Shown here: positions 19,191 through 58,900 of the stretch, piece by piece | Layout of the letters: every line of letters starts with the position of its first letter | Position numbering within the stretch: the stretch's first letter is position 1 | DNA from: Amphiura filiformis | Taxonomy: Eukaryota > Echinodermata > Ophiuroidea > Amphilepidida > Amphiuridae | DNA length: 64,000 nt | NCBI RefSeq assembly: GCF_039555335.1 | Contig: NC_092646.1 | Coordinates: 26,341,780 to 26,405,779 of the forward strand | Reading direction: 5' to 3' | Translations under genes and position numbers: made by a program | The notes under the pieces: generated by a model | The model's input: the letters and a program-made list of their open reading frames with translations, nothing else | Told to the model about the DNA's origin: nothing | The model's database searches: none

Positions 19191-20030
19191 AAAGTGAAAC
19201 CTTTAATAACAGGGTAAGAACATAGACCCAAACCCACCCACCCCAACACAATCACCCCAACACAAACAAAACAACAATCACAACACAACACAACATACAA
19301 AACAAACAAACAAACACGGATGGTGCAATGATGTAGCCAAAAGCAATAACAAAGAAAAACAAATATTAAAGGAGTAAAACAATTTAAGAGGCTTCAAGAT
19401 CAAGGGTCCATCTCTTAAAATGCTTACTAAGCTTTCCCTTGCTTTCAGCAATTTTATATTCGGTGTTTCTCTTAATTTTAACCAAATTTTAAAAAGCAAC
19501 CAAATTCGGCTGGGTTTGTTGAAATTTACATCTGTGCAAATAAAATTTCAAACATAAAAAAAGAAAATTGACACAACTATCATGTTCGGACAAATTGGTA
19601 ACACCAAACATTTTTTCAAAATTGGTAAATGTAAAAGACTCCTCAGACACACTATTGATTAAAAAGCATAATTCATCCCAAATAGGGGTAACCTTAAACA
19701 CATTCACAAAATAAATGCACAAGTGTTTCAGGCATATTGTTGCAAAAATAACAATTTGGCGAGTCAGCTCTACCGATTCTATGAAGAAATTTGTTAGTAC
19801 AGATTGCCCTATGAAATAATTTAAAATAAAAGGACCTCAACTGAGTTTCAATAGTGCAATTAAAATTAGCACTATGAATATCATTCCATTCCACTTCATC
19901 CAAAATATCCAAATAATCGACCCATTTATTTTCAGCCACCACTGCAGCACATTTCCTCATCTCTGTTTCCTCATGTTTGGGAACTTTGGCCTCACCCACA
20001 AGGCCAGCAGAGATTTTAGTGAAAACATCC
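19190..20030 (-). pseudogene. LINE C-terminal remnant with zinc-knuckle region
   Basis: Two minus-strand frames (about 19,999-19,694 and 19,722-19,489, then 19,499-19,278) read as one degenerate protein. The segment around FYFKLFHRAICTN, followed by a C-x2-C pair (CYFCNN) and an H-x4-C pair (HLFCEC), resembles the zf-RVT region found after the reverse transcriptase of some L1/Tx1-like retrotransposons. At least two frameshifts separate the pieces and the RT core is missing, so it is a 5'-truncated dead copy. An A-rich, CAACA-type tail lies at its 3' side (19,200-19,320). Confidence 0.7.
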
Positions 20031-28905: not shown

Positions 28906-31900
28906 GTAAGTACATGTAGTACCCCGTTTACATTGGGCGAAAGTCGTAATCGAATTCACTAAAGTTGTAATCGACTTAATTCGTATCATACATGTAAACA
29001 GGTAGAGTTGTAATTAATCGTAATTCCAAAGTCGTAATTCGAATGTGGACTGCGGAACTCAGTCCTCAATGATAGTCACTTATCTTTTTGTGTCGTTATA
29101 TGACTATCATTTGATTCCAATGATGACTTGTATCATCATTCATTTCAAGTGAATTCGAATAAGTCGTCATTAATTACGACTTTTTGCTAAATGTAAACGA
29201 ACACGGATGCCGTAACCATTGGTAACAAACGAATTCGATATTCGTGAATGCGAATTTGGAATCGAATTCAGCCGATGTAGTGTAAACACCCACGAATTAA
29301 TCTGCTGTCGTAATTCAAAATGCAGCTGAAGTCGATTACGACTTTTGCCCAATGTAAACGTGGTATAGGCTCGGCTCCAGCCCGGGGGGGGTGGGGGTCC
29401 AAAAGAGCAGACATTTTGCTCACCCCAAACTACCCACGCGTTCCCAGGTAAATTTATTTCTTCTCTGAAAATCTACGTTTGAAATCTCCCCCCCCTCTTC
29501 TTCAAAATTCGTTTTAGTTTTAGGCATAATTCTTTTTAGAATTCAATTTATGGGTTTTTTTTAAATTCTCCTTTGAAACATATTATACTGGTTATATTCT
29601 GTCAATATTAAAGGCCGGCATGGACTGGGCAAAAAATGGATGTTCAAATAATTGCAGATATCGGAATCCGATTAATACTGTTTGTTTTTTTCTAATGAAG
29701 AATAATCAACAAAATAATGCGAATCCGAATGGAGGGTCAACTGTGAATCCACCACCACCACCACAGGCACAGCCAACTCCAAAACCACCGACACAGCCAC
29801 CTGTGAATCCACAACCGCAGACACAACCGGGGACACAGCAACAACCCAGCTCACCCTTCAACTTCAATGGAGAGTTTAAGTTCACTGAAGAAAGTACACA
29901 TCGACTGAAAACAAAACCAAGACCAATTGGAAATCGTAAGGTAGAGTATCGATTATCTTATATTACCCCATTTTGCCATTTTCACTTACGTACAAAGTGT
30001 ACGTAAGAGCCTGACCGTGCATACGTAAGAAAAATGTCGATTTGTTTGAGCAATACAAAAACGAGAGCTGACTCCTATGGACTCAGATGCAACAGTCTCT
30101 CAAACAATACAGTAGGCCACGTCTATTCATGTGTTTGTTAAAGAAAACCTGACTGCTATGGTGCAACTTTTAAAACGGCCTCTTTTCTTACACAATTAAC
30201 CATTGTGATTGAACGCAATGACGAGTGACGCTATAAATTGGCCCACATGTTTAAAACAAATAGGGCTATACATATCTTTTTACATTTCGTAAAATATATT
30301 TTGACTTATTCTAAAACGTATTAGGGGGAACTTTTAAGTTCTGGACCCTATAGAATGTAACAAGAGCCCACAATATATTCCCGAGAGTCGCAGAGGCTGA
30401 ATGACCCCACCCAGAGGCCAAGATTGAGTATGAAACCGAATAACATTTCAGAAATGAAGCGATGAACCGAAATATAATTATTAAATGAAACCAAACCTGC
30501 ATCCTTCTGGTCAACACAGACAGCTGAGCAAACAATTGGAAGAGCCAAAAGAGTTCCCAAAAAGCCATGGATTAGCCACGAAGTACTTGATCTAGCTAAG
30601 GAAAAGAGCAGGTTGCGCAAACAAAGTAACACGCCAACCTAGAAACATCGAAACAAATAAAAGAGCTGCGTGCTGAGATCCAGAAAAGGAGCAAAGGAGA
30701 CAAGACAACATGGCTCGAAGAACTATGTAAGCAGATTATAGACTTTGATGCAACCGGGAAATCCAAGGCAATGTTTAGATCAGTAAAACCTAAGTCCACT
30801 CCAATACAGCAAGCATGCATCAAGGATAGAGAAGGAAAATTTCTCAGTGAGTCGGAAGATATCATGAACAGATGGAAAGAATATGCATGGTGGAAAGCTG
30901 TTTGGAAAACCAGATGGAGAAGTACCACTTTCCATGCCAAAGCACCGGTTGAAGAGGTAGACCCTCCACCTCCTGTGTGAAGTAAAGTGAAGTTGAGCAT
31001 GCAGTTAGCAAACTCAAGACTGGGAAATCACCAGGTCTTGGCGGTATACCTGCCGAGCTAGTAAAAGCCTCAGGACGGTATGGACTAGAAACTTTACACC
31101 AACTTTACATAAGTATATGGACAAGTTGTGTATGGCCAGAAGACATGAAAATACAGGAGTTTGTGATGTTAAAAGGCTGGGGACCCCAGCAATGTTCCAA
31201 CTACCGGACCATCGCACTCATCAGGTATACCAGAGCAAAGAACATGAAGAACTGCCTGAAGCAAGAACTACCAGAAGAATAAGCTGCTTACAGGAAAGGC
31301 CGAGGAACCAGAGACATTTTGGTATGCCTTCAGATACTAATGGAGAAGATATTTGAGTATAGGTGATGAAGTTTTCGTCATGTTCATTGATTATACAAAG
31401 GCGTTTGATTCAGTCAGCCACGTTAATCTGTTTGCATGGTGTAATTAAAGAAATGGGCTTCCCAGTACATCTTGTGTTTCTGCTACAATCCTTGTATGTA
31501 AACCAGAGAGTAAAGATCAGATGAAATGGTGAAAATACAGATGAGTTCAGTAAGACCAAAGGTGTGAGTCATGGCTGCATTTCGTCACATATCTTTTCGT
31601 GACAGACACAGAGAAAGCGATGAGGGGTGCTGATGTAGATACTTATGGCATCACAGTAGGAGGTATACCAATCTCAAACCTCCGATATGCAGACGCACTC
31701 CTTGAAACATCAGTCGATAACATAGAAAGATTGGCAACATAGATGTAACTGGCAAAGACATGAATCTCATACTCAATGTGAAGAAAACTTCTGGTTGCTG
31801 AGACAGAAGGAAAAAAGTACAACATCACAATAGATGGAGAAGAAGTTGAACATGTCAACCACTTGAAGTATCTGGGCTCGGCGAAAACATACAATACAAA

Positions 31901-34900
31901 TTGCACGGCAGACATCAAAGCCATTATTGAAATGGCCACAGGAAGAACAGTTGAACTTCAGGATCTGTGGAATGATCGGAACCTTGCAACAGAAGTATAA
32001 ATGAAACTGATCAAGATATGGTATGGAGTGTACTCCTTTATGGCTTGGAGGGCTGGACTTTGACCAAAGTAGATGTGAACCGGGTGCTTGCTGCCCGGGG
32101 CTTGCTGCTGAAATGTGATACAGGAGAAGAATGCTAAACACCAGTTAGGATAAAAGAAGAGACATGAGCATCCTTAGTGAACTTGGTGTGAATAGATAGC
32201 TGCTGAGAGTTGATGACAAGAAAATTAACATACCTTGGTCACATCTTCAGAGAAAGTGGCAGTGCATTAACACTCCAGATAATAGAAGGAAAAGTTGAAG
32301 GGAAAGGGAAGAGAGGACGACAGATTGACAGATTTTGTTGTTCCAAAGTTTCATGGGCAAATTGGTAGTACCACCTTCCAATACACTACAGTCAAGGCCT
32401 GGAACTGTCTCCCAAGCAATATTAAATCCATCAATGGCTATGCCAACTTCAAAAAAGAAGTAAAAGCTCATCTTGCTACAAAAGCAAGATCACAAGAAGG
32501 GGGGTAGTTCTAGTACTTGACTGTTTTGTTTGTTTCCTTCTTTGTCATTGATGTTGTCCCCTTTTAAAGGCTTTTTGGGCTATCCTTGGTCTTATCAACG
32601 TGCTCTCTATAAATTTGTGCTGTTTATATTCTTATTCTGTTTTTATAAAATGTATTTAAGTATTTTCTATATGTGCCTTTTAAAATGTAAATTGTTGATG
32701 TTGATAAGACTAAATAAATATGAAATGAAATGAAATGACAACATCAAAGAATGGACAGGTATGAACCTAGTGCAAGCCAAGCGTCTACATGGTCTAGCTC
32801 AGAACAGAACAGCTTGGAAGAAGGAGGTAAGGGGCTGCAGCCAGATAGTATAGCCAATCGTCAGTAGTGACGGCGGTCGAAAAAGAAGATATCCAGAAAC
32901 ATTGAGCTACAGCATCATTGGTGCTCTTATATTTGCTGGCATTTTAGATTCGTTACATTCTGTTCATTGTGGTCCAGCAATGACCTTTCACCCTTTTTTG
33001 AGTTATCCAGGGCCTACTGGCCCGGTCCCCGCACTCCGTCCATCCGCAGGTATTCATGCTTGTCGGTGAACTTTAAAAACACCCCATTTTGCATCTCATT
33101 TCGCGAAGTTTTTAGGGGAAACACCCTCCTTTTTTTAACGATTTCGCGAATTATTTGCCCTTCGATAATACCCCTATTTTCCCTAAAACGCGAACGATAT
33201 TTCTAATAATACCCTTTTCTAGCAGAAACGCGTAGGCTACTCGATGAAAATAGCCTTTTTGTCAATTTCGCGAACACGTGGTTTGAAAAAACAACACCCC
33301 TTTTTTGTGTGTTTCGCGAATCGCGTTTCTTTATCTCAAAACACCCCTTATTTCGCGAAATTTTCGACGAGCATGAATACCCGCGGATGAACGGAGTGCG
33401 GGGACCGGGCCTACTGGTGTAGCTTTTAATCACATATCTGGCTTTACGACTTTGGAATAGTTTTTATTTTAATTCTTCTTCTTGCATTATTAATTTCAGT
33501 TTGTGAAGGTAAAACCAGATGTAGATGTGAAAGCCCTATGCAAATGGATGAGTACTGAGTGGAATATGACCTTGCCGCCCGGCCTAGTGTTATCTGTTAC
33601 TGGAGGAGCTTGGGACTTTCCTAGGAATGCGGTCGTCAAAGAGGTTTTTCGCAAAGGTCTTGTTGACGCTGCTGTCAAAAATGAAGGTATGTGTTACGGT
33701 ATATTTGTTTGATTATATGGAATGTTTTAAAATATTTTCGTGGTTAACATCCCGGTTAACACGCACATGTAAAAAAACACGACAATGCTCCCAAAAGGGC
33801 GGCTGATATTAGTAGTATTGTAGGGTCAGGAGAAGCAGCACGCCAGCACCTGGATGAATTGTGACAATCGGGATTGATTACTCTAATCTTTTCGAAACGG
33901 AATATACAAATTGTCAGTTCTTAAAATACAACGGGATATATTGGTTTTCATTTTGGTGGGGATGTACGACAGGGGCGGATCCAGGTTTTTGAAAGGGGAC
34001 CCACTCCTGAGAACTTTTCCAGGTCTCTCTGCTCGGCCACAATTTACATGATTGCGTGTCTGCGACCCAAAATGTTTCAAATGTTTTAGCGAAAAAGGGC
34101 GGATCCAGCTAAAGATGTGTAATTTGGATATTATAAAACCTGACACAAAAAATAGCACGCGAAGTGCGCAAAAAATTTCAATTTCACACTGTTTTAGCAA
34201 TTAGATTGGCCAGTGCGCAATTTTGCAATTTTGCCCTATATTAACCCAAAATGTAGGTGTTGTTTTTTTTTTGGGGGGGGACAAAAAAGGAAGCTGCACA
34301 GGTCAATTATTGTTTTAATTTTTGTTTTTGTTTTGTTTTGTTTTTTTGGTTTTTTTATGCTTTTTCAATCCAGATCTCGCAATGGTTATCTCGGGTGGAG
34401 CTCACGAAGGAGTTATGAAGTACACAGCCAGAGGCTTGAGCGAATACGAATGGGCCCACAAGCCTAAAGGATCCGATGACAATGCTGATCCAATAACTCT
34501 CGGAGTATGTGGCTGGAAATGCGTTGATGATGATGTCAGAGACAAATTGGAGAAATCCGTCACAAACCATCAGGTATAGCGAAAGTGCAGAGATATTGCG
34601 TTTAAGACCCCTGTTTTTGGTCGCTGCTCCGAAAATGCACATTATTTTTCCAAATTGGTTGTTTACCTCGCCTCGTACCAATACAATCTTATTTTCAAGT
34701 TTCGAGTTGCATTGCATTTGGACGCGGCTGTTGATCTGGTCAAACCCGTTCAAGTTAAAAAAGGAAAGTGGTGAAATTAGCGCGTGAAATTTGAGATTTT
34801 CGGAAGGATTTTGTTTAAAATTTGTATTGCCAATTCTTACCTAAACACAATTTTTACAGTGTACGCCATTTCCTTAATTTGGCAGGTAGCTGAGCTAGAA

Positions 34901-37900
34901 TGTCGGACATATTTCAATGTGACGGAAAACTTCATCGATGAAGCATTAGACCCAAACCACAGTCATTTCATCTTTGTAGATGACACAACAGATCAAAGAT
35001 TGGATATCGAATTGCGAGTAAAATTGGAAAGAGAAATGAGGAGTAAGTATTGCCCATTACATGAGAGTATCAAAGTACCAAATTGGTACCAAATTGATTT
35101 TTTGGTTCTCGTAGACTCCGCAGTACAGGTGCCCATTAATTGGGCATACTCTCCATATTACACCCAATCCAATAATTTTATTGTAGAAAGGAGATCTCCG
35201 CATCGAGCTACTGTTTATACAAACATCCAAACATGTTATTAATGGGAAGCAATTTTAGACTTCTACGCTACTCAATTTTAGTACACTCACCGGAGCGCTT
35301 TCACCGGGTCAACCGGCGTCTTCAGCGGATGTTATTGCTCTGAAGATTTGTTGTTGCTAGTGATGTTGTTGGAGCACCTCCGATGACGTCATAGATGTAG
35401 ATGACGTCAAGCTTGAAGATGTGGTGGCGCCCCTTGGTTCCGGGGGTCAGGAGGTTGTCCCAAACAGGGTCGATGTCTAACCCTTTGTCACGGTTCAGTC
35501 TGGGTCTTTTGGTTCTGATATGGATGGCTTCCAAGACCCTACGAGGGAAGTCCTTAGACTCCCTCTCTAACACTTTCACGTTTTCCCAGTCAATCTGGTG
35601 CCCTTTGCTCCTGTCAATATGTTCCTTGATTGCTGACTTAGAACTGGCCGCTTTGGATTTATGTTCTGTTTTGGATTTATGAACATCGGAGGTGTTCCAA
35701 CAACATCACTAGCAACAACAAATCTTCAGAGCAATAACATCCGCTGAAGACGCCGGTTGACCCGGTGAAAGCGCTCCGGTGAGTGTACAAAAATTGAGTA
35801 GCGTAGAAGTCTAAAATTGCTTCCTATTTACGTTTACCGCTACGTATGAATATACATCATTATATGTTATTAATGACTTTTATTTTGAAGCCTTCGGTGA
35901 AACGCAATATCTAGCATGTAAAGACAAAGTGAATAGAAAGGAACAAATTTCCTGTTCCAGTTCAACTCACCGTACCTGCCACCATACAAAGATTGGACTC
36001 GACGATTCGGAAGCCTGGATAGCCGACGTTGGCGACGGTAACCAATGGATCTCCCTGGATATGACATACCCAAGGCGTGTGAATGGATTGCAAATGAAGG
36101 GGAACCCTCAAGCTGACATGTGGGTTACAAAATTCAAGGTTCTGTACAGTGATAATGAGAGGGATTGGAAGGTGGTGGATAACAAGGTAAGTTTTATAGT
36201 TTATTTCACCATCATGCATCATATTATATACAATAACAAAATATCAAGAAAAGGATGGTAGGACAATCACAAGAGCAAAGCTCGTAAGACATGATTGCCC
36301 TCAGTGCAGAAACAAAAGACGCCTACAGACAACAGAAATTTGTTGACTTTGCCGCACTGAAATGGACTGGCTATCGCTAACTACCAATACCGCGCGTGGA
36401 TGTTGTCATATAGGCCAATGGTGAAAACATATACCAAATGTGTTAAAGAGGTTTCAGCGAAGAGGAATGGCATGCTAACTGCTAACTTATCAAAGCAATC
36501 AATGCAGAACTTTTACGGGGTGTGGTTTGTTTAGGCTTAAGTTGGAATCTCTGAAGGCTAGTAATATAGGACGGTCGAGGATCAAACCTTTTTGGGTTTT
36601 AGTAACATTAGGTACATGTAGGTTTTGGTAGGCATTCATTGAGTACGGGTAAGTTCAATCAATGGCGAGTTTTAGCTACCTAGTTAGCCATGAATTGGTA
36701 TTGATTGAGTAGCGGTATATAGATAGCCCGAAAACGGCATTTGATTGAGTACTGGTAGCTAGCCCAAAATTAGCATTTGATTGAGTACTGGTAGCTAGCC
36801 CAAAATCGGCATTTTACTGAGTACTGGTAGCTAGCCCAAAATTGGCATTTGATTGAGTACTGGTAGCTGGCCTAAAATCTGCATTTGATTGAGTTCTGGT
36901 AGCTAGCCGAAAATTAGCATTTGATTGAGTACTGGTAGGTGGCCTAAAATTGGCATTTGATTGAGTACGGGTAGCTAGACTAAAATCGGCATTTGGTTGA
37001 GTACTGGTAGCTAGCCGAAAATTGGCATTTGATTGAGTACTGGTAGCTAGCCGAAAATTAGCATTTGATTGAGTACTGGTAGCTAGCCCAAAATCGGCAT
37101 TTGGTTGAGTACTGGTAGCTAGCCTAAAATTGGCATTTGATTGAGTACTGGTAGCTAGCCAAAAATTAGCATTTGATTGAGTACTGGTATAGGTAGCCCA
37201 AAATCGGCATCTGATTAGATAGATAGATAGTAAGTAAGTAACAGTAAGTAACACGGCATTTATAATGCGCCTAATGCCAGAGGATACAAAGCGCAGAAAC
37301 ACAGAAAACAAAACAAAACAAAACAAAAGCAACATCATGAGAAAAGGTATGTTTTCAGAAGGGATTTGAACCCGGTGACAGTTTGGGCACTGCGGATATT
37401 TAGGGGGATTGAGTTCCATTTGTAAGGAGCAGCCACTGAAAAGGCCCTGTCCCCGGCACCCTTGTTCGTCCTTGGTACACGCAGATTGAGACCGTGGTCC
37501 GAACGTGTGGTGACTGAGCCCTCATGAGGACGTTTAACAGTTAGGCACTCATCGATATACCGGGGACACAGCCCATTCAGTGACTTGTATATATAAAGCA
37601 GAGTTTTGAAAGTAATGCGTTCCTTTATACGAAGCCAATGGAGTTCTTTCAACAGGGACTGATGGAAGTGCGTCTCGGCGACAAGAAGACTAAGCGGGCA
37701 CATTTATTCTGGAGCCGTTGTAATCGATCAATATCCTTTTGCGCAATATTGTTGAACAAAACATTACAGTAGTCCAGGCGGGATAAAATCATGGCTCTGA
37801 CAATATTGGCACAGGTGTCTTGATCGATATACTTCCGGATTCTGTACAGATTGCATATTTGCCAGTTTATGGTTTGGCTCAGGTTAGTTATATGTTTGTC

Positions 37901-40900
37901 CATATTCAATTGGTTATCAAAAATAAAACCCAAGTTTCGCACATTGGATGATTGAGGAATGATATCATCACCAATATTGAAGGTGACATCCTGCAACCGG
38001 GATTTATGATGAGAAGATGACATAACAAAAAACTCTGTTTTATCGGGATTTAACTTAAGTTTGTTTGTTATCATCCATGCGTTAATATCCCTAACACATT
38101 GAGAAATCTTGAAAATAGCACATGAAATATTACCAGGAATTGTAGGATCAACAGGTAAATATATTTGTATATCGTCAGCATATACATGGTACATCAGATG
38201 GTGATGGCGAATGATGCGACCAACATTGTGAGTGTATAGAACAAACCCAAGTGGTCCAATAACCGACCCTTGAGGTAGGCCATGCTGAAGCAAGATGTCA
38301 TTTGAATATGCACCGCTTACAGCAACACGGCAAGATCTATTCTCGAGATAGGATGAGAGCCACTGTTGTGCAACACCAGTGATACCAAACTCATCAGCGA
38401 CCCTCTGCAGCAGAATTTTACGATCGACAGTGTCGAACGCTGCAGAGAGGTCGAGCATAATAAGGAGAACAGCCTGTTGACTGTCCAGGGCATGGGAAAA
38501 ATCATTGTGAACACGGGCAAGAGCCGTCTCAGTGCTGTGATGGGTCCTGTATGCCGATTGCATTGGCTCAGCAAGATCATGTTCATCAATATGATTTTTC
38601 AGTTGGGAAACAGCACATTTTTCAATGATCTTAGATGTTAACTGGAGATTGGCAACGGGGCGGTAATTCTTAAGTTCATTTTTATTGAGGGATGGCTTTT
38701 TCAATACAGGAGTAATGACCGCTCTGTGCAGATCTTCTGGGAGGGTTCCTGTGGACAAAGACATATTCACAATTTTTGTGAGTGTAGGGAGCAAGATATT
38801 GACATGTTGTTTTATGAGCCATGTGGGGAGAACATCCAGAACACACTGTTTGTTTGGACACTTAGTTATAACCTGTAACAACTCGTCATCTGACACATGT
38901 GTAAAATGATTGAATGCAATGTTAGCACTTACACTACCAGATTAGATATTAAAAACATTCACATCATCATTAACCACAGATTTGTCAACCTCGTCCCTGA
39001 TCTTGTTGACCTTGCCAATAAAATATTTACCAAAAGCATTTGCAAGATCAACAGGATTCTCTGTATCAGGGATAGGATTTGAGTCCTTGTTGAGGAGCTC
39101 GTTAAGGGCGTACTACACCCATATATTGGTTTGATTGGTCTAAAAAAATATTTTATCATTTCAAGCAAGGCGATATATGCACTGATCATGTGAAATAAAA
39201 AAATATGAAAAACATCGTGAAAGTGTCCTTTTCACCTATTTGTCTTAAAGTTGACTGGTTGTTAAGGACGCTACCACGTAGTCTCCGTCACAACCGGTTT
39301 CTGCCGTTTCTAACATTCATCGATATTCACGTAGACAGTATTAGACTTGCTACCAGTCCAAAATACGACCTGCCTATGTATGTTTAGGGCTGACACGTCA
39401 ATTTGTATTACCAATAGGAAATACACAGGTCAGACATTTGAGAATAATAATTCTTTAAGATTTGGTAAAAAATTGTAGCCGCCTCATTAGTATGCTACCT
39501 AATCAAAAATTTTGTTGAAATAAAATTAAGGATCGAATGCGTTTTAGTGTCAAAAAAGGCAAAATTACCGTCAAACTTCCGCCGAATTCTGCACCCTTGC
39601 GAAGCCCTCCGGCGGTTGCACAGTTAAATCGGGAATAAAAATATCCGACCTTTGCGATCAAAAACAACAAATTACAACATTGGACCATGTTTGGACATAC
39701 TATAGGCAAAAAAAACACTATTGCCAAATAATATAGAATAGAACATTTGACATCAACTTGACAAACTAATGAAGAAAATGTGCTCCATAAACATTAGGTA
39801 AGTGCGCAAAACAATTCCTATTCAAATGCGTGTATAAAACTGAACAGGGCCGGACGGCTACAAGACTACCGCAATACAGCATAAGTTCAAAGTTGCCAGA
39901 TTCAAACATGAGCATGTATGCCTAGCACCTTCTCTTGGTAAAATCCCTGATAAAATCAAGATTGTGACCGTCGTGTTATTAAAATTGAATTTTAAGCGTT
40001 GGAACTTAACACAAAAGACCATACGGGTATGCTCTCCCGGAATGACCCCCCCTCCATTTTTGGATTCCGCAGCTCCAAAAGACCCGTGACCAAAATAGAG
40101 CTATAGGCGCAGGCGCAGGCATACGTAAACACGGAAACTTGACAATTTCAGCTCTAAGACCTACATCGCTCGATCATTCTTCACATGTCTGGTTTTTTTC
40201 AGGCGTTATTCACCCAGAAAGCCAAGAAAGACCCAATTTTGACTATTCGCAGCTCCAAAAGACCACCTTTTATATTTATTGGCACCTCCAAAATGATCCC
40301 TTTCCGGCATGTAGGCCTACCCCGGTACGCCGTCAGCACCCCCGGGCTCAGTCCCCGGACCCTACTAAATTCTGGGGAAGCATACCCCAGGAGCATACCC
40401 ACCAGAAATGTATGTTAGCCCCCCCTCCCCCCGTGAAGTGGCGTCATGGGGATCATGGGCGTAGCTAGGACTTTTTAAGGGGGGGGGGCAAAGGAGTGAA
40501 AGGGGAAACCCTCATTCAAGGGGGAAATCTTTAACGAAACAAAATAGGCTCAAAAGTACAAAAAAGACCCTAGTAAAATTCTTCAGGGCGACCGCATCCA
40601 AAGGGGGGGCGGACTTTCCCCAGGGGGTTGGGGTAGCTTCCCCCCTTGCCCCCCCCCTTATGTACGGCACTGAACGTATGAGAAATTTGCTCATTTCCGC
40701 AAATTAAGACATTTTAACAATTCCGCAATTTTAGACATTTTAAATGGTATAGCCCTAATAAAGTGAGTAGAAAAAGTGAATAATAAATAATAGTAGACCT
40801 ATTACACCCCATAGATATTGGCCAATGTCAATGCACATGTGCACGTGGCATCACTCTGCTACCGGTATTTCTTTTGTGCCAGAAGAGGCATTTTAAAGGA

Positions 40901-43900
40901 GTATATTAATACTTGGCTTTTGCAATAATATAGGCCTACGTGCCAAAACTTGCTTGCCCCTTCTCGGCCTGCCTAAAAGTATACCGGTTGCCATGTAGGC
41001 CTAGGGGGACAATGTTTTGGTAGGCCTATGTCGATAGAGGGGGGTTGGCATGTCAAAGTGGGGAGGACAAAGATTTGTTGGCATGGGGAAAGAAATTCAC
41101 CACCCCAGATGGCGAGTTGCGATAATATAAACTTAATCAGCGGTGAAAAGCACGAGTATAGGCCTACAATTCCGCAAAATAATAGGCGTAGGCCTACATT
41201 TTAAAGGTAACACGGAAAAATGAAAGTTAAAGGTTATAGCCAGGGGCAGTCATATAATTAAAATATTAGATGATGAAATAAGCATGATAAGGGGCTCACT
41301 GGGGGATTTCCAAATGGTGTAGGCCTACCAACTGAATTTCTTATAATCTTACCCCTTCCCCGGCCTTCATAATCGCCTTTGTTGTCCCTGTTTGTTGTTA
41401 GGGGCTGGCATTTTCTTCGGGGGGGGGGGGTCCCAAAAATACTGGGGGGGTCATAGAATTTTCAGACCAAAAATAGGGGGGGTTATAATTTTTTAACACC
41501 CAAAATAGGGGGGTTATAGAATTATTAAGGGCTGGTGACTCAAAATTTTCCCGCGCGCGCGCATTCTTTATCTTTGCAATCGAAATGTGCATACAATCTA
41601 TGCAAAATTTTTACACGCTCCGCGCGCCTTCTTTACACTTACAATAAAAGTTTTAACGCGCTCCACACACTTTTTTCACTTTTAAGTTTTGACGCGCTCC
41701 GCGCCTTAGTTCCGGCAATGAATAATTTTTCTTGAGTCTGTGTAGTTGGAAGGGGGGGGGGGGTCATAAAATTTTTCGACCCGCGATAGGGGGGGGTCGT
41801 AAAAATTTTTTGCCCGCGATGGGGGGGGGGGGGGCATAAAAAATTGACTCCGGTCACTGACATATTTGTGACCCCCTTCCGAAGAAAATGCCAGCCCCCT
41901 TATAGTAGGCCTATTAGTGGTTTAGCCAAACGCTGAGTAGGCCTATTAAAGACAAAATCTCATCCCGGGAAAAAATCATCAGACATTTTACACGAATCTG
42001 ATTACTAGCCGGGATAAGCCTATGATAGGCCACCTACATTATATCGGGCTTCAACTTTGTCAATTGGCCTACTGCTGTTAGGATCCTATGCCAAATAAAT
42101 AAATAATAAAATGTAGATATTTATATAGCGCTTTATGCCGTAAACAGCCTCAAAGCGCTTTACATTTATTCCGCCGTTATTAGAATATGTCGGAACCACG
42201 TTTGCTGCCTACAAATGGCGCAGGGTTCATTAGTAGGCCTACAACGACTGTGACTACCCCTAACAGCTTCCCATTGCACCTGGGTGGGGTGAGGCAAGCG
42301 TGACAAAGCGCCTTGCCGAAGGGCGCAACACGGTGGCGGGACGGGGACTCGAACCCACGCACGTCAAGCAAGCTCTCAGATTATGAGTCCAAGGCCGTAA
42401 CCACTGAGCCACCGTGCCCTCGATATATATTTCAAAAATATTAAATGACAATTTAAATGACTTATCCTTCACTTTTAGACATTTCTAAACAATTTTAATT
42501 TTTTACACTTTGCTGGGATCAATGGATAGGCCTTTAAAATTGTATAGATGGGAATGTCTAAATTCGAGCGTAGGGCCTACGTTATAGGCCTGAGCGTGCC
42601 GGATAACGTGCAGGAATTTGTTCATGATTTTTACTGCGTTTCTATTCTGTAGGCATACCCGTGACGTGATTCCAAAGCCTTGTGCGTGTTATTTAAAAAT
42701 CAGTCGTGTCCCATTTAATGTGCGCCAAAATTCCCCCTTCGATCTGCCAAATTTTCCCAAATTCCTGTGCCCCCCCGGCCCGGCCCGTCTTGGCTTGTCT
42801 AAAATTTGTTTTTTCCTTCTCCATGGCTCCGTATTTGATCTTAAAAATACCTAAATAGGGTAGGTGCAGGTAATATGGGACAGCAGGTAATATGGGACAC
42901 CTGTTTTCATTTTAACAAAAGGTAGCTTAGAGAAGGTAAACACTTTAAGTTGATTTGTTAAGTGTTTAGAAACATCAATTGTGCTTCTAGAAATGCAGTT
43001 TTGGAGTCTGAGTATCAAACTCTTGGAAATCAATGCCAAAAAGAGTGAAATTGCCCAAAAATTATGTCGTTTTTTGGCCTGATATAAAATCAATGACGTC
43101 ACATTTTATGATTGTGTATCCAAAAACTCTGGTACTGAGGGGCATTTGTCATTTTTATGATCTTTAGGTGATGGGTTAAGCTTATCAGCAGGTAAAATTC
43201 CACTGACAAGTGGCACTTTCCTTTTATAAATGATTATTTTCTCTGATTTTCAACTGAATGGGTGCAGGTAATATGGGACACATAGGAAATTGTATGCATT
43301 GTCAATGCGAAAAGCAAAACTATTTAGAAAATTGAATTTTCTTGTAGAAATTTGCATTTAACATTCAAAATCATGTAACAAAAATGTTTTTAGAACAAAA
43401 GAGTGATTTTCTGAACTTTTGATTTTCACCATAGAGATAACACAGTGTCCCATATTACCTGCACATGCAGGTAATATGGGACACTTGACGATGACGTCAT
43501 TTTGACGTCATAGCGTCCAAACAAACATAAAAACAAGGTAACATTGCCTGTTTTATTAATCTTAAAGGACATGTTGTTCATCATAACAATCTCTTGTGGG
43601 CATATCTTCTTTAGTTTTTATGCAAATAAGCTAAACGTCCTTAATGGTCCCATATTACCTGCAGGTACCCTATATACCAAAACTCGGCAACTCGTATAAC
43701 GCAATGGATTGTGGGTGAACACTTGTCAAAATTGTCGTGTGTCAAAATTCGGCTACCGTATATCGTGCAGAACTCTATGGAAATATACACAATATTTGAT
43801 TTTTTTGCCTTGGATAGCGACAATCATAGGTAAGTTACAAATGATATGACTCCGCTTAAAATATGCTATCACTGTATCAATTTTGGAGTTCCTAGTTGAA

Positions 43901-46900
43901 ACGGGTTAGAAAACAAAAGGTAAAATAGTTACCAAAATCGCAAATATAAGCTTAACGCACTTACGAAATATGGTGGGTATAGGTGACGAGAAATGCAATT
44001 TTTTCAACATTGCTGTAGTATGGTTGTGGTAACCTGTTACCTATGGCTTAATTAAGTTTCAGTGAAATAATGTCGCTAGTTAAAAATACAAAATATAGCT
44101 CAACATTGAAAATAGAAGCATTTTAACCAGTTCGTTTTTGATAGATGTGGAGCACTGAAAATCACCAAGTTCATGAAGCCATCAGGAACCACTTATTCCC
44201 ATTTTACATATCAACATTATTTCTCTAATGCGTTAGCAACACATATCCAAAATTTTAACGAAATCCGTTGATAGCAAGCTTTCCAAAATGAAGTGAATTT
44301 AAAACATCAGTGATGTACCACCTTTTGGCTTCTACCTTCAAAAGCATGTAAGCTACATTGATACCGATGCCACCAATAGAACGAGAAGATTTGCCCCTTC
44401 ATTTTGCATACCACTATGTCCAATTTTTATTTCTCATTTCTTCACAAAATGCAAAAACCCGTAAAAAAATGCGATGGGTGTAGTACCCCCTTAACAACAT
44501 TGTACATGTCCTTAACACTACAAGACGTCTCAAATTTGTTCTTATAATACTCAGTTTTTGATTCAGCTACAAGGTCCTTGACACTCTGTTTTGAGGTGAG
44601 GAATTCTTCACGATGAATAGATGACCGAGACTTCCTCCATTTCCGCTCACAGCGCCTGCGTTCTCTAATGGCTTCATTAACTTTTTCACCAAACCAACCC
44701 GGTTGGTGTGACATACTCGACCTCCTTGTTATTGACGGAGCATGGCTGTCAAGAACTTCTAGGCAAGAGCGGTTATATTCATTGAACAAATCGTCAACAT
44801 TGGAATAACACTTCTGCGAGATAGCCAGCATTTTCATAGAAAGATCTTCTGAGAAGCGTTGATGATCAATGCTTCTATATCTGCGAAAGGTCCGAACAGT
44901 TTTAGATGGGCGCTGTTTGGATAAGTTAATGGAGCAGTTAACCATAAAGTGATCTATGGTGAAAGTGACACAATCAACACAGATATCATGAATTAAGTTG
45001 TCAGAAACTCTGGTTACAACAACGTCAAGGATATGGCCACTCCTATGTGTTGGCTCGGTCACATGTTGACTCATGCCAACTGATGACAGGCAAGTAGACA
45101 CACGTTTAACATCACTCTTGGTAGGCAAATCAAAGTGCACATTCCAATCTCCAACAAGTAGGACTTTGCCAGGCAGTAAGTTCACACAGTCAATGAAATC
45201 CTCTATTTCAAGAAGGAAAGATGACAATTTGAACTTATTGACAGCAGATGGCGATGGTCTATATACAATGATGATGTAAAATGAGCGAGACATGTTGGAC
45301 ACAACAGTATATTCAAATGTTGTGAATGTAGGTATGTCAATGTTCGTAAGATGACAGAGTCCAATTTGTTCTGACTGGGTAGATGATCACAAATCGGCAT
45401 TGTTTGAGTGAGTACTGGTATTGGTAGCCAAAAAATCGGCATCTGATAGGCCTATCAGCATTGATTAACTGAGTTCTGGTAGGTAGCCTAACAAAAAATC
45501 AAAAAATCGGTATTGATTGATTACTGGTAGCCACATAATCAGCATTGATGATTAAGGGATCTAAAATGAGCGTTTATTGCGTTTCGACAGTATTTTTTGT
45601 GGGACATGAGAGCACCTCAGACCTATCGAATTGCATTCTGAATACGAAGAATGTCTTTCTGATATCAAATAATTTTCATTTTTTGAAAATCACAATATAA
45701 TACAAATTTTATGACAAATTATAAAAATTTGATATTTTTCACATTTTTGATATATAACAGCCCTCGAAGTAAATTATATAAATCTAATGATATATTCTTA
45801 AAGTGTATGTAGCAGGGAGGAAAAGCCGACGGTCAATTGAAAATTTTGACCTTTCATATTGAAGATATAGATTTTTTCCCAAAAAGACCTAATTTTTTTT
45901 GGTGTTTTGGGAAAAAAAATCCATATCTTCAATACGAAAGGTCAAAATTTTCAATTGATCGTCGGCATTTCATCCCACCTACATACACGTTAAGTATAAA
46001 TCATCAGATTTATAAAGTTTACTTCGAGTACTGTTAAATATCAAAATATCAATTTTAATGATTTGCCATAAAATGTGTATTAAATTGCGAATTAAAAAAC
46101 AAAATTATTTGATATCAGAATGACATTCTTCGTATTCAGAATGCAATTCGATATGTCTGATGTGCTCTAATGTCCCAAAATAAATACTGTCCAAACGTTC
46201 ATACCCCAGCCCTTAATTGAGTACAAAACATCGTAAATTTACCACAGAGCAAGGACATTCAATCGAGCTCTCTATATTATCTGAATTTCGTGATATTTTC
46301 CTAGGAATTCGATGGGACTAGTGACAGAGACACTACTGTTGCCACCAGCAGATTCAGTTCTACAGTTCGAGCTCGTTTCTTTAAGATACAACCGACTAAA
46401 TGGCACGGAGACAAACCGAGTATGCGCTTTGATCTCCTCGTGTGCAAAGGTTTGTATTTGTCTTTTTCTGTTTACCATAATGTAGGCTGTTAATGAAATC
46501 AAATTACAGTGATGATATAAATAAAGCAGCGAAGCTAATAAAGAACTTTGATTATAGACGTAAAATCAAAATAAAACGAAGAACACTCTCTTCATCAGAC
46601 TATGGAAACAGTAGTCGACTATATCCATGATTAGATCATGTCAAAATGTGCTCGAGATAGAGATGATTTCAGTTACAGAATGAGCTTAATGCTCTGCATG
46701 CTAGCCATGCGCTTCAATGGAAAAAGTTCAAGTTTTGAAATATTTTCTCAAAATATCAAGAGTTATCTTAAAAACTACTGAATCAATACTAGGCTTGTTT
46801 GTACTCATTTTAATGCATTTTTCATGCTGATTCCAAATATAGTCATGAAAATTTACATTTCTGATATTTTGTAATTGTCTGCAGTCGACACCCGCGTGAA

Positions 46901-49900
46901 GAGTTAAGCTTGACCTTGAAATTGAGTTTAAGGTTGAGTTTTAGTTTAGAATAGTTGCTGGTCGCAACCCCAACATCCCATTTTCATTCATTTTTGTTTG
47001 GTACACACGTGTAAAACATTGTTCAAGTAGTAATTGTGATACATTTTTATCTTTTTACTTTTGTTCTAGATGTGGCAGTCGTGTGTGTCCTTGTTGAGGG
47101 AGGAATAAATAGTATCAAGCAAGCATGTTCCTCCATAAAAGCGGGTACACCGCTGGTCATCGTCGCTGATTCTGGCCGTGCTGCTAACGTGCTAGCACAC
47201 GCATTCGAAGGGCCGAATCTACCGAATCTAGACGAGTAAGTACAGTAGGCGTATTAAATATTGTACCGCATTTGTTATTTGTTTGTAAAGTGCAATGTTC
47301 ATATTTTAAGTGCCGTTGTTATGTTATGTTATGTTATGTTACCGTAATCCTAAGCCTATTAGCTATGGTTCATGTTTGATTGTGGCTAGCATCTTATTTG
47401 GGGGGTGGGGGGGGGGGGGCAGCAGGGGGAAAAGTGAATTTCGGGGGGGGGGGAAATCAACCAATTTTGAGCAAAATTACAGCAAAAAAACTGGTTCTGC
47501 CTTCTCACAAGGGGCACATGATGGCATGTGATATTCTTAATAAAATAAGACAAGTTTTGATTCAATTGATACAAATGTGATCATCGACACTTTTATTTTT
47601 AGCATGAAAAAATATTTTGCTCTCTCATAATCATATCAGAAACCCCAAACAACGGCCAAAACCTAGCTTTCGGCTTAAAGGATGTATCCGGCAATTACAA
47701 CATTACCGTAAAACCCCGTCTACAAACATATAGTGTGCTTCTGATGAAAGCTACATTAATCCAGTCGCCATTATGGAGTTTGAGCAAATAAATTACGGAT
47801 CCAAGCATATACAAACAAGTATTATTTTAAGACCGATCAATTGTATTGGTATGTTAACGCTTGCTTCGAATTAATTAAGCTTTTATTAAAAACACAATAT
47901 ATGCTTGTAGACGGGGTTTTACGGTATACCTTATATGAAAGAAAAATAATTATCAAGCACGAATCACGTGGTTTTATTTAAAACAAACTCATGTGACCAA
48001 TACGCGATATTCAAATTCCCGGGCGCCGAAATTGTCAAGTGCAATGACGTCCCAGTAATACAATGAAGGCTGACGACAATTGAGCACAAATAACCATTAC
48101 GTCATTGCACTTACACAATTTCGGCGCGGGAATTTTGAATATCGCGTGTTAAGGGCCGACTGTTTTTATTCTTTTTTATGGTCAATATGAGTTTGTTTGA
48201 AATAAAACCATGTGATTCGTACTTGATAATATTATATTGCCGGAGACGTCCTTTAAACGTGGTAACCATGCCAGTATTTCTTTAAACCAATTTCACTTAC
48301 CAGTTGTGTTATTTTCAGGAGTACAATAAAAGCCGAACTCAAGGAAATTATACGACGTGATGTAGACGTCGATAGCACGTTTGACCTGATCAAAGAAGCC
48401 GCGAAGAAACCCAATCTACTGAATATTTATGATGGAAGTTGCGAAGGAGGAATCCAAGCGGCAATTCTTGAAGCCTTAAGAAGAGGTAACTTTTATTTGT
48501 AATATTTTATTTTCAGTTATTGTTGGTTTGTTATCTGGTACGACTTGCTTGTAAAAATCACAGAGCGGATAACTTTGTCCAAAAGTGTCTTGCGATTTTT
48601 TTTCTGCCGTTTGTCTAAACATCCTATACTTGAAATAAAAGGTTCGAGTCCGTCCGCACGCACAAATGGGTTTCCCGTCGCCATAACAATCAAACAATAC
48701 ATTATATTATACATATACGTATCAAAAAACTAACAGTATCCCAGTGGGCACAGGTTAGGATTTCGACGTTGTATCAACGTTGATACAACGTTGTATCAAG
48801 GTTGATGCCCATTTGCAAATACAAAGTGACTTCAACCTTATTTCAACGCCGAAATCGGACGTTGATACAATGTCGATACAACGTCAGAAACTGACCTGTG
48901 TGCCCACTGGGAATATTATACTTATTTATGTAGATGACGAACAGAGCATTGATGTGAATACAACGTTGGCTTTACTATGGGGATATCACGAAGCATTGAA
49001 AGAGCAGATGTTTGGTTCCAGCTTTACATATAATTGGAAGGTAAATAATGAAATCTTTTGCCTTCTCATGGTTTATCGCATTTTTGATTTGCATACAATT
49101 GTTGCATTTTACAATCCCCATTGAGGTCTAGACGCAAAGTTCCCGGAACCACCGCTAAGTGGCAGCACACGACGAAAGCTTTGATGGAACACCTCAATTA
49201 TTTTCATATGCAAAAACCAGGTAATGAACTGAGATGCCCGAGATATCTAGGATGTAGCCACAATTTTGACATTGTAGCGCATATATAATGCCTTAGAATG
49301 GTTTCAAAAGGGTTGGAAACGCTGATAAATATACGAAACAGCATAGATCTGGGCCAAAAAGTGCATTTAATCAACAGATCTAATAGACCCGTGACGTCTG
49401 CGTGACGTCACGGGTCTATACATGTACAGGTAGCCGCAGGGGCGTCGCTAGACCAATATGATTCGGGGGGCGTAAAATATGGTTTGCCGACGGAAATTTT
49501 TTGTAATTTGTTGACCAAAAAAAATTTTAGCCAGGACAGCGCTCAGAAAAGGGGGGGGGGGAAATGGGGGTAGGAGTCAATTTTTTTTCAAATAAATAAC
49601 TAGTAACTTCTATACCATTAACAGTAGGTCTATTACGTTACAACAACACAATTTCGTAACACATTAATCTTTTATATGGCTCTCACAATTTGCCGATAAT
49701 CACACATACCTTTGACTACATTTGCCGACTAAATTGTGTATTGGGGTGTCACACCCCCATAACCACCCCCTCTAGCGACGGCCCTGGGTAGCCGGGTATA
49801 GCCCAGACAAACAAGTGATATGTCTATGGGTATAGCCCATAGAAACTCCCCCTAGATATTGTTTTAGGGCCAGAATGAGCACACACACAAATTTAGCCTT

Positions 49901-52900: not shown

Positions 52901-55900
52901 ACCGTAAATATGGCGGGCTCAACAAAAGCATGATTGCAATCCACCGCGACAGTTCGTCTCACACTCTAAACAAATGCATTACAATCAAATAGGTTGATGA
53001 CAACATGATAGACTGCACTGGACAGGAATTTGCCGACAAACTGCTTGGCAATAAGTCAAATCATCTAAAACCGCCAGACATAAATATTGGAACTGGATGG
53101 AGCGAGATCTTTGCTATATATCGATGGCTATGAAATTTAGTTATTCATTTTTACCTCTTTACTGTAATTTATCTATTTATATTTCAAGTATTCAGTATAT
53201 GTTTTCCATTCGCAGGCTTACAATGTGGATGAGCTTGTATTAGGAGCCCTACTGAGAGAAAATATCTTGAAAAACCAAGTAGAATTTGTGAAGTTACTAA
53301 TCGACAACGACGTTGTAGACTTGGATAAATGTGTAACGTGGGGTTTTATCAAGCATCTGTATTCCAAGGTTAGTTGTTATTACAAGTTCCATGAGAGTAC
53401 TGAGCACTACCTGCCGATCTAACATTGCCTCTGATTGGTCAATTACATGATATCGTCACTTTAATCACCAATCAGAATGTAGACTATGCCATAGTCGAAT
53501 TTTATTAAAAATATGTTATTATTAGTCATGATGAACCCATTTCGTTGAACTCAAAATTATACTGATGTTTATTAAAATTAAAGTATTCAATAGTAAAATG
53601 GTCATAAAGAGTTAAAAATATCAGACGATTAGTGACAATAAAAGTAATTGAATGCAACATTATCTTGCATAATTATAACGGCTCACTTTAATACTGAACA
53701 ATTCTGATTTTGGAATCTACCAGTTTATTGATAGCGAACCCCGAATTTAGACTATGCCATAGTCGAATTTTATTAAAAATATGTTATTATTAATCATGAT
53801 GAACCCATTTCGTTGAACTCAAAATTATACTGATGTTTATTAAAATTAAAGTATTCAATAGTAAAATGGTCATAAAGAGTTAAAAATATCAGACGATTAG
53901 TGACAATAAAATTAATTGAATGCAACATTATCTTGCATAATTATAACGGCTCACTTTAATACTGAACAATTCTGATTTTGGAATCTACCAGTTTATTGAT
54001 AGCGAACCCCGAATTTAGACTATGCCATAGTCGAATTTTATTTAAAATATGTTATTATTAGTCATGATGAACCCATTTCGATGAACTCAAAATTATACTG
54101 ATGTTTATTAAAATTAAAGTATTCAATAGTAAAATGTTCATAAAGAGTTAAAAATATCAGACGATTAGTGACAATAAAAGTAATTGAATGCAACATTATC
54201 TTGCATAATTATAACGGCTCACTTTAATACTGAACAATTCTGATTTTGGAATCTACCAGTTTATTGATAGCGAACCCCGAAATTTGAAGCTAACAAACAG
54301 AGGGAGTAGGGTGACTGATCAGATGTGAAAATCTATCAATTGTGCACACATTAATTAAATCAGAGTTTTAAGCTTAATACAATATCCAGAGTATGCACAA
54401 TGGGCAAGTGGACTACGGGGTAGTCTAATCAGAATGGAGCTGTTGCTGATTGGGCCAATTGATAATGAAAACTTCTTTTTGGCCAATCGGCAGGTAGTTC
54501 TCATGGGGTATGGCTAAAACTGGAAAAATACGACTCGTGCCATCGCACTCGCCTTAACGGATGTATACCCCCATATTTAAATAAGGAAACAAATTAATGA
54601 TGACCTCAGCTCAGATATTCGGGCCTACCCTTCCAAATAAACTGAAAGCTCCAAACTTAACCACTATTGTAATTCTATGTCCATTATTTTGCAGGTGAAT
54701 GATGATGCCCAATCCTTACCTGATCACATGTGGAGAATCATTGAATCCGAGGTATATCGTTTACAAAAAAAATCTTTCTAAAACACCTTTTTTTTTTTTT
54801 TTTTTTGCGCTCTTTTTAAAAATGCACTAGTATGTATTTCAGATTGAGAAACCCGCGAACTACCAACGTGTGTAGGAGTAGATAGCCTATGGTAAAGATT
54901 GAGTTGCTTTCCGGGGCAGCCCGACGGGGCAGGCGGAAAGCTTTCCCCAGTATCGAAATACCGGGACAGAATTGCTTTAAAATTGTGACCCATTCACGTT
55001 TTAAGCCACAATTCGTCGTCCGTATTCCATAGTGGCGTATAGTGGGGCGCCGCGAATAAACAACTTTTCGAGAAAATCGGGTTTGAAGAAATGCCAATTT
55101 AAAATCGAGTTGTGTAAATCAGACATTCATTATATTTTGTAAATGATGTGAAATTTGTGTAGTAATCTAAATAGATTTTATTGTTATATATTTTTCAAAA
55201 GAAATAAATACATACTATTGCTGGCAAACTGAAAATAAAACTATACGTCACTATGGAAAACAAACAAAACGCAATACCCTAATCTAACGTTAACCGTACG
55301 CCACCTCGGTCGCCGTGTAATCCCTATGGCGTTACTTTTCGTCGTTCGTATTCCATAGTGGCGTATAGGTCCGATACGTGTACGCCACTATGACATACGA
55401 TGTTTTTCATTTTGCCGATATTTCATAATTATAAAATGTGTATAAAAAGTGGCGTATGGTCGATACGCCACGCCACTATGGAATACGAAAAATGTCACTT
55501 TGTAACTATACGCCACATTTAATTAATTAATTACTAATTAATTAGCTAATTATGACTGATGAGACTTAGAAAAAATGAAAGAGGACATCATTAAAAACAT
55601 ATGTGCCAATTTTCAAAAAAATGACCAAAAATCACTATACGCCACTATGGAATACAGCCGACGAATTATCCCATTATGACCCATTTCGGCAAAATTGCAA
55701 AATATGCCACATGCTTCTTGCGCATTTGTCCCATCGTCGAACCGACCGGGCGATTATGCAACCCCTTGTAAATTTTGCCCGGACGTCACACAGTGTAATT
55801 TACCCATTACCAACTTCAAAGTAATGCGCCATGTTGCATTACCTCCAAAGCTGCAGCACTCATATTTATCCAACAGTCAAATATGTTGAAAAATCACTCA

Positions 55901-58900
55901 TGAAGTTTCATGTTCAATTTTTTCAGGTTCAAATTATTGTTAAATTATTCAAATGCTTTACACCATAATGTAATTGAGAATAAACATTGACTTTGTTGTA
56001 TATTTTTACACCCTGCTACGACTGGTACACCCAGCCAGCAGTATTATAGTGTTTCTGCATGCAGGTCGTATCAACAGAATCCATGCGTGCATAGCCAGGT
56101 GGTGTATGAAGTGCAGTCCCTAAATTCAGTAAATTTTCATCGTCAACCGTGTAATTGAATGGGATAATTTTGAAATTTTAAAACGCTTAAAATATCACAA
56201 ACAAATAGGCCTATGTTGATAAATAATATAAATACAAGCTAAAACCGTTGGGGTTCGATAATGAACCCCACAAAACTAACCGAGTATATGGAAAATGCCA
56301 TACGGCCGGGCGGTTTCACGAGTTGCCGGCTCGATCATGTCATCCGCCGCCTGTGCATAGCCAACCCCCATTCACGTACACCCCCACACACCCGGGAAAC
56401 ACACACAGCGGCCATGCGAAAGATGGATTTTTAATGTCACAAAAAACAAAAGATCCGCCAAATCTGCAAGGGATCCGCTTCACCACCTTCAGCGCATTCC
56501 ACGCTACGATATATCACTGACAGATACTGAGATAGACATTGACATTCATACACACAAAAATTAAATATTTGCAATTAAAAATTCGTGTTTTTGAATGATT
56601 TTGAATTCTATCAATGAAATTGCAGCGATATCGTCATTGGGTTAACGATTTCCCAAACGCTGATTGGTTGATTGCGTCACTGTCAGGATCTGTGCATGCA
56701 CTGTACGGAATGATTTTTCGTATGGGTAAAATACACTGCGCGTCACTTGTGAAAATCACATTACCGTTTCATTACCATTCCAGGGCAATGTGCTGGATAC
56801 GGTTCAGGAAGTGATGCAGGAACTCGCTTTTGATAAATTTTCTTATTACCACGGGGATAATCGAGGACAAGGTAAGTAATATTTATGTATTACCACAATG
56901 TGATGATACCAGGCAGAGTGACCAGATTGGGTAGTCATTTGGAAGCCAACTTCGATTCGAATGAGTCCTATGAATACATGCATATTTTGTGCATGCGCAC
57001 CAAGATGGACTTCTCGCCAATCGATGAATATTATATTGGGCTTTGTGTCGTCGAATATCAATGCAAAGCATATGCTGATATCCTTCCGGTGTCTATACTT
57101 TGTTTACATCTGCGAGCCCATCCCTTTTCCTTGTTACATTTTAGGCCCGTATGCAGGATTTTTTTTTTTTTTTTTTCTGATTTTGAAAAAGTGGACCTTT
57201 TTTCCAAGGGGGGCGATTTTGTAAAAGTGAACTCTTCCTCAAAAATTTGGACCTTTTTGGCCAAAAAAGTGTAAAAACCCCGATTTTTTGGCTCGCTACG
57301 CTCGCAAATTGTCATATTTTGGGACTTTTTGTATACTTTTGCACATGGGGGGGGACACCCGCACACCCCCCTGCGTACGGGCCTGATACACAGGCGCGTA
57401 GCAAGCGGGGGGACAGGGTGGACGAAGTCCATGGGCCCCGAGGGTTCAGGGGCCCCGAGCACAAAAGCGAGAATTAAATAAGGGCTGATAATGGAGAGCA
57501 GGTCCGGATTTTTATACCATTGGGCCAGATGGGCCCCCCCCCCCAAATTCTGGGGCCCCAAAATTGCCCTATGCATCTTTCTTTTAACCCCAATAACAAC
57601 ATGTTTTTGGTCAAAATAGCAAAAAATCTCAGCGCTTCGCGCAAATTCAAACAGCAAAGTTCATGTTGATCTGTGGTCAAAATAGTCTGAAATTGAATTG
57701 AACAAAATATGTTAGTCTCCCTTAGTCCGCCTTTAGTTAAACCAAAACTTGGCCACTGACATGAGTGCACATGCCTTCCTCGGCACGCGCGTGAGTTCGG
57801 GGCTTCCAAATTTTGGCCTGGCCCAGGGCCTCCATGAGGTAGGCTAAATCCCGCCCTGGTTAAAAGGGCCCGTACTGCTCCTTGTCCATGGGCCCCTGAT
57901 GCTCCTGCTACGCCACTGCTGATACATCATGTACACTTTTATCTTCCCCTGGAGTCATAGGGCTGTCAATTTTTTACTCGTATGTTATATTTCCCCCCAG
58001 AGAAAGACCCAGTAGACGACCCTTACAGACATTTGTTCATCTTCGCTCTGTTGTGTGGGTACGACGAGATGGCGTTGTATTTTTGGGAGGAGGACTCGGA
58101 ACCTATAGCTTCGGCATTAGCCGCTAGTAATATGTACAAGAATCAATCCAAGAAAATATCATCCAGATACACGGAACAGCAGGAACATCTCCAAAAGATG
58201 AAAAAGTAACTATGGTGGTTTTTTTGCTGTACATCATAATGATTTTGCATGAATTATTACAGGAAGTTCAACTTTCCTGATTAGTATTAAACAATCTCAT
58301 CTGTTACTAATATACATGTACTCTTTTTATTTTTTCTACTTTTTCCAGTTATTAATACAAGTCAAGTCCAGTAATATTTTATTAGATCAACATTTAGGAA
58401 ATTTCACTCATGAGTGCTCATACAAAATGAATAGAAAATAGAGACTACCACTGCGAAGGTGAGGTGTATTGGTTACCTTTCAGTTCGTCCTGATTATTAC
58501 CCTGTTATACCGTAAAAACTCGATAGTTAGCATAAGTGCTTACTATCGAGCGCTTTTGAAAACATCAAATTGTACCAAAGTCCGGCGCTATGGGGTTGAG
58601 ACACACATTTGCAGGTGTACTTGTTCGTATATAACTATGTGTATCGATGATTTGCTCAAACCCCTTTACACTTTTGTGGATGGAGCTCTTCATGTTTGCA
58701 TGTTTTAAAGGCGCTCGATAGTAAGCACATATGCTAGATATCGAGTTTTTACGGAAGTCATGACAGTCCGTATGCCTTCCTCCAGGCAGTAAAACAAAGG
58801 TATGTTTCGGGAACACAGGTTGGAGCAGCTGGGAGAAATGTGGCAAATTCCTCCAAGTCTAAAGCATTAATGTCGCTCCCTATAGAACCAAAATGTTCAT

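Follow-up and report, generated by a model that had tools for sequence, protein, structure and literature searches.

TRPM channels are well-studied cytosolic sensors. In human TRPM2, ADP-ribose (ADPR) binds in the MHR1/2 cleft, where it is clamped by Y295 and contacted by R302 and R358, as described in a passage of PMC6759353, and alanine changes of R302 and R358 have been reported to alter ADPR binding at this site (a passage of PMC8949931). The family has also gained and lost whole domains, among which the main text of a 2026 survey of TRPM evolution (PMC13143021) counts NUDT9-H, the alpha-kinase and an ancestral gain of the melastatin region, a region shared by every TRPM and TRPS member. 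The same main text contains none of the terms discoidin, FA58C, galactose-binding, insertion, F5-F8 or coagulation. The later of the reported domain changes, NUDT9-H and the kinase, are C-terminal.

Here, we analyzed a 64-kb window (the whole stretch of 64,000 nucleotides, positions 26,341,780 to 26,405,779 of contig NC_092646.1) from the ophiuroid Amphiura filiformis. The window carries, on its plus strand, the 5′ portion of a single TRPM gene in which two exons encoding a F5/8 type C (discoidin) domain lie between the exons encoding the two halves of the SLOG domain. We regard this as a new arrangement of domains in an otherwise known family of channels, and a TRPM gene with a complete F5/8 type C domain inside SLOG is, in our estimation, quite probably real and expressed. 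A first-pass annotation of this DNA had known of no such TRPM. The open-access literature agrees, as no description of a TRPM with a discoidin insert was found among the matches listed, judged by titles and the starts of abstracts. The architecture may already be present, uncommented, in annotated proteins of other animals.

When exons 3–9 (Table 1) are joined, they encode a stop-free product of 439 residues. AG precedes every start and GT follows every end of these exons (7/7 modelled exons), and their phase series (0-1, 1-0, 0-1, 1-0, 0-1, 1-2, 2-1) agrees at 6/6 junctions and continues through exon 15. The Pfam profile for SLOG in TRPM, LSDAT_euk (PF18139, cut-off 25.7 bits), matches the product in two stretches with 126.8 bits (1.3e-36). 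F5_F8_type_C (PF00754, curated cut-off 28.2 bits) matches residues 200–321 with 77.8 bits (1.1e-21), covering profile positions 1–124 of 127. Exons 5 and 8 encode two halves of a single TRPM SLOG domain, with the insert occupying residues 182–328 between them. The first-pass annotation had placed exons 5–8 at the same coordinates on the plus strand, and the recomputed splice sites and phases bear this out. It had also assigned exons 5 and 8 to SLOG and exons 6 and 7 to a F5/8 type C domain, and had suggested the Pfam search of the joined protein, in which both families stand well above their cut-offs in one frame.

The insert alone (exons 6 and 7, 147 residues) reaches 81.2 bits against PF00754, again over profile positions 1–124 of 127. 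Exon 6 by itself covers positions 1–82 with 50.9 bits, and exon 7 covers 87–124 with 21.3 bits, which is below the cut-off. These successive profile stretches and their joint score indicate that the two exons, although separated by 10.1 kb, are adjacent parts of a single domain. Both the QWISLDM and the TKWHG..SMRF motif are found in the insert, and of its cysteines at positions 10, 22, 30 and 146, the first and last correspond to the opening and closing Cys of the domain. Among the structures in the PDB, neuropilin-1, neuropilin-2 and factor V match the insert best (best 60 of 62 sequences). With the entire joined protein as query (best 60 of 120), the leading match was the TRPM2-like channel 6co7 (1e-24), which we take to be the Nematostella channel, followed by other TRPM2 chains, and neuropilins matched on the insert. 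Of six positions in the peptide pocket of neuropilin-1 b1, one (the Asp of QVDLG) is kept in the insert as we read the alignment.

The location of the insert within SLOG was determined by comparison with homologues. The exon-skipped SLOG sequence, in which exon 5 is joined directly to exon 8, matches LSDAT_euk with 132.5 bits in one stretch. From the 41 sequences matched by this form, five alignments were used, and the homologues proved to be longer at the insert site by 13 residues in 6co7, by 11 in 7aov and by 11 in 6mix, 6puo and 8e6t, the last three being near-identical TRPM2 chains. This is in line with the earlier proposal that the F5/8 domain sits at a short SLOG loop. In 6mix numbering, the insertion site falls within 308–322. 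As for the identity of these chains, 6puo shares its PDB row with 6puu, which is named as human TRPM2 in a passage of PMC8949931. R173 of the joined protein, just ahead of the insert, aligns with R302 of human TRPM2, and R365, after the insert, aligns with R358. Since the equivalents of R302 and R358 flank the insert, the F5/8 domain interrupts the sensing domain at a point between two residues that contact the ligand.

The splice sites and the reading frame of the insert were then considered together with the role of chance. The donor of exon 6 agrees with the donor consensus at 9/9 positions and is the only such site among the 659 GT sites in 35043–47069. The exon 7 donor scores 7/9, and that of exon 5 scores 6/9 with a complete GTAAGT. 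An alternative end of exon 5, for example at the GT after 35066 (phase 1, longer loop), was rejected, its donor scoring only 4/9. When bases were shuffled, the frame stayed open across the whole inserted length in 6 of 20,000 cases; for draws from the intron between exons 6 and 7, the count was 7 of 20,000. Taken with the profile scores, the rarity of such random open frames means that chance is not a fair explanation. The open frame reflects either constraint or recent arrival, which the shuffle test does not separate.

Downstream of the SLOG domain, exons 10–15 follow exon 9 in phase. The downstream exons, joined by eye and without exon 12, match PF25508 (TRPM2-like domain) with 109.7 bits, and the S1–S3 exons on the same strand match Ion_trans with 30.1 bits over the S1–S3 portion only. 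In the PDB, the downstream set is closest to TRPM5, then TRPM3 and TRPM2 (best 60 of 62); this order of scores, TRPM2-like for SLOG and TRPM5 downstream, is not a clade placement. Because MHR3/4 and S1–S3 continue downstream as TRPM, exons 6 and 7 lie within one channel gene. The phase at the end of exon 15 (2) does not match that at the start of the S1–S2 exon (0), which means that at least one intervening exon is missing from the model. As the window stops inside the S3 exon, the pore, the TRP helix and any NUDT9-H domain fall beyond it. At the other end of the gene, exon 2 has a provisional 5′ end and contains in-frame ATGs at 29620 and 29695 as candidate starts, and exons 2 and 3 joined match LSDAT_euk from profile position 2 onward with 37.2 bits.

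Table 1. Exons of the Amphiura filiformis TRPM gene, with positions counted from the first letter of the window.
Feature	Position	Strand	Encoded region or remark	Phase in	Phase out
Exon 2, probable	29620..29940	+	proline-rich N-terminus, end = GEFKFTEESTHRLKTKPRPIGNRK		0
Exon 3	33500..33686	+	SLOG (LSDAT_euk) start	0	1
Exon 4	34374..34573	+	SLOG	1	0
Exon 5	34886..35042	+	SLOG to ...ELRVKLEREMR, human TRPM2 R302 equivalent	0	1
Exon 6	35891..36186	+	first two thirds of F5/8 type C, opening Cys, QWISLDM	1	0
Exon 7	46305..46449	+	last third of F5/8 type C, TKWHG..SMRF, closing Cys	0	1
Exon 8	47070..47235	+	second part of SLOG (VVCVLVEGG..SGRAANV), human TRPM2 R358 equivalent	1	2
Exon 9	48319..48485	+	SLOG end	2	1
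Exon 10	48934..49040	+	MHR3	1	0
Exon 11	53216..53368	+	MHR3	0	0
Exon 12, possible	54695..54751	+	VNDDAQSLPDHMWRIIESE; identified by eye, with fitting splice sites and phase	0	0
Exon 13, probable	56784..56871	+	GNVLDTVQEVMQELAFDKFSYYHGDNRGQ; identified by eye, with fitting splice sites and phase	0	1
Exon 14	58001..58205	+	MHR4 (EKDPVDDPYRHLFIFALL...), inside PF25508 match	1	2
Exon 15	60022..60249	+	MHR4 end (KFAALAYESL...WRHGLDKPG)	2	2
S1–S2 transmembrane exon	62869..63003	+	family and PDB matches	0	
S3 exon, start only	63866..64000	+	interrupted by window end		

The arrangement of these exons suggests how the domain may have been acquired. The introns on both sides of the exon 6–7 pair are phase 1, and symmetric phase 1-1 flanks are expected of a domain placed into a pre-existing intron. 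F5/8 domains frequently take the form of phase 1-1 modules. We therefore propose that a two-exon phase 1-1 module may have entered a phase-1 intron in the SLOG-coding region, bringing with it a whole F5/8 type C domain. As a whole, the explanation that the TRPM gene gained its F5/8 domain through such a module in a SLOG intron is the one we favor, with a confidence slightly above even. We infer that exons 6 and 7 are included in transcripts and that the insertion followed this route. For animal proteins that acquired a domain in their middle part, a passage of PMC2926785 gives symmetric phases in 28/49 gains and several exons in 40/49, and the gain of exons 6 and 7 looks like the minor class of intronic domain insertions. 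An open-access search found no literature linking discoidin domains with exon shuffling. Similarly, no donor F5/8 gene was found inside the window by tblastn; with exons 3–9 and 11 and with pieces of neuropilin-1 b1 and 6co7 as queries, the best match beyond the exons themselves had an E of 0.25. When the insert was compared with viral and prokaryotic contig collections, and the exon-skipped SLOG with viral contigs, no encoded relative was found, a result with little bearing on animals. The GC content at third codon positions is higher in the insert (0.49) than in the two parts encoding SLOG (0.43 and 0.40), a difference that is not decisive.

A number of observations weigh against this interpretation. 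Neither exon 5 nor exon 7 has an outstanding donor; 41 of the 659 GT sites in the interval score 7 or more. Skipping exons 6 and 7 leaves the frame intact. The exon-skipped SLOG even scores slightly higher than the interrupted one (132.5 vs 126.8 bits). The equivalent of human TRPM2 Y295 is not kept, its position falling in a two-residue alignment gap, so that binding of ADPR cannot be taken for granted. Although F5/8 domains are normally extracellular, the insert retains their terminal Cys pair, which would not be expected had the domain long been cytosolic. Intronic insertions make up less than 10% of all domain gains, according to a passage of PMC2926785. Finally, the F5/8 domain could be tolerated without having a function.

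The frame-neutral skipping makes it possible that exons 6 and 7 are an optional cassette, with most transcripts omitting them to encode a plain TRPM and inclusion being minor or tissue-specific. Their symmetric phases would permit this and the skipped protein contains SLOG in a single stretch, but that form would be short by the 11–13 loop residues present in 6co7, 7aov and the human TRPM2 chains. Moreover, the splice sites of both exons are usable, and in 12 kb only the donor of exon 6 is a perfect one. Of the alternatives, this is the one to which we give most weight, while still considering it unlikely at roughly one chance in four.

Far less weight is given to polyadenylation after exon 7, which would yield a protein of half a SLOG plus the F5/8 domain and no channel. 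Read-through from exon 7 meets a stop at 46491–46493, followed by AATAAA at 46520, 46537 and 46570, but the exon 7 donor is usable and its phase is correct for exon 8, which makes this form improbable. We hold an assembly error or an unused fossil, that is, a F5/8 fragment misjoined or recently copied into a TRPM intron, to be equally improbable. A single assembly is the basis of the analysis and repeats surround exons 6 and 7; nevertheless, the two exons lie on the same strand as the rest of the gene, their phases fit on either side, their splice sites are intact, and they provide an open frame and a nearly complete domain. Lastly, although nested genes exist and the 10.1 kb between exons 6 and 7 contain mobile elements, a separate gene nested in the TRPM intron is highly improbable, given that the exon 6 open frame has no ATG ahead of the domain, that tblastn with exons 6 and 7 and a neuropilin-1 b1 piece revealed no further F5/8-like stretch in the window (E <0.2), and that the phases of exons 6 and 7 match TRPM on both sides.

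Several repeats and mobile elements were observed around the inserted exons. A palindromic element at 35241–35828, with arms of 145 bases (35241–35385 and 35684–35828) that are 98% complementary, ends 62 bases upstream of exon 6; its minus-strand frame appears Penelope-like by eye and has no Pfam match. The intron between exons 6 and 7 contains a minisatellite at 36720–37216 (36-base unit, 13.8 copies) and, on the minus strand at 37649–38941, an open frame of 430 amino acids matching the reverse transcriptase family RVT_1 with 114 bits. A second minus-strand frame at 44442–45386 has no Pfam match and looks, by eye, like part of the same LINE, split by an element of about 5.4 kb at 39101–44495. 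This element sits between the two LINE-like frames, has 22-base terminal inverted repeats (95%) with TTAA at each end, and may be of the piggyBac type, a class guessed from the TTAA. Elsewhere in the window, a 268-base unit is present in three tandem copies with 98% matches at 53475–54281 in a downstream intron, and a retroelement piece lies on the minus strand at 19697–20029 (zf-RVT, 36.8 bits); nine other frames in the same Pfam scan matched no family at E 0.01. Two tRNA-Met-like sequences on the minus strand (15535–15621 and 42332–42418) are possibly tRNA-derived SINEs, and no RNA family in the window reached its gathering score. The palindrome TAGGCCTA occurs 31 times in the window against 0.55 expected from dinucleotides, and GTAGGCCTAC occurs 8 times against 0.02.

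Returning to the TRPM gene with an inserted F5/8 domain, the ends of the F5/8 fold lie close together, which would allow its placement as a side domain without breaking the SLOG fold. The F5/8 domain is predicted to fold on a SLOG surface loop, and this loop would connect the element that bears the equivalent of R302 with the strand running towards the equivalent of R358. Because the elements with the two arginines are linked by this loop, a bound partner could alter how the clamshell closes. The F5/8 domain may therefore serve in docking or ligand binding and so bias the SLOG clamshell, and hence the channel, towards opening or closing; for such a modulation of gating, our confidence stays a little short of even. 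The first-pass annotation had suggested that a membrane-lipid, sugar or protein ligand might be coupled to SLOG gating in this way. TRPM structures place the SLOG layer well away from the membrane, so binding of the insert to the channel's own membrane is less likely, and a protein partner or a cytosolic docking site seems likelier than the plasma membrane. It is also conceivable, though rather unlikely, that the insertion turned SLOG into a two-input sensor, with the channel gated by nucleotide in combination with either a second ligand or the oxidation of the terminal Cys pair. In extracellular F5/8 type C domains, this pair forms a disulfide; its retention here may be a sign of recent arrival or point to a redox role. 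No N-glycosylation sequon occurs across the 147-residue insert, which is weakly consistent with a cytosolic site. If true, a binding module in the sensing domain would be a natural experiment in adding a second input to a channel, and an example from animals in which insertion into an intron brought a usually extracellular domain to the cytosol.

In comparison with TRPM2-type channels (6co7; human TRPM2 6mix and 6puo), this gene has the same order of SLOG (MHR1/2), MHR3/4 and S1–S3 and shares the equivalents of R302 and R358, but differs in the 147-residue F5/8 insert in its SLOG loop and in the gap at the Y295 position. With neuropilins, factors V and VIII and discoidins, the insert has in common the nearly full-length F5/8 profile and the terminal Cys pair; here, however, the domain lies inside a predicted cytosolic channel domain. 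Related galactose-binding-like folds occur intracellularly in the XRCC1 N-terminus and in APC10/DOC1, which are not channels, and this class of fold would accordingly work inside cells. Whereas the NUDT9-H and kinase domains of known TRPMs are C-terminal, the F5/8 domain of this gene is located within the N-terminal SLOG domain.

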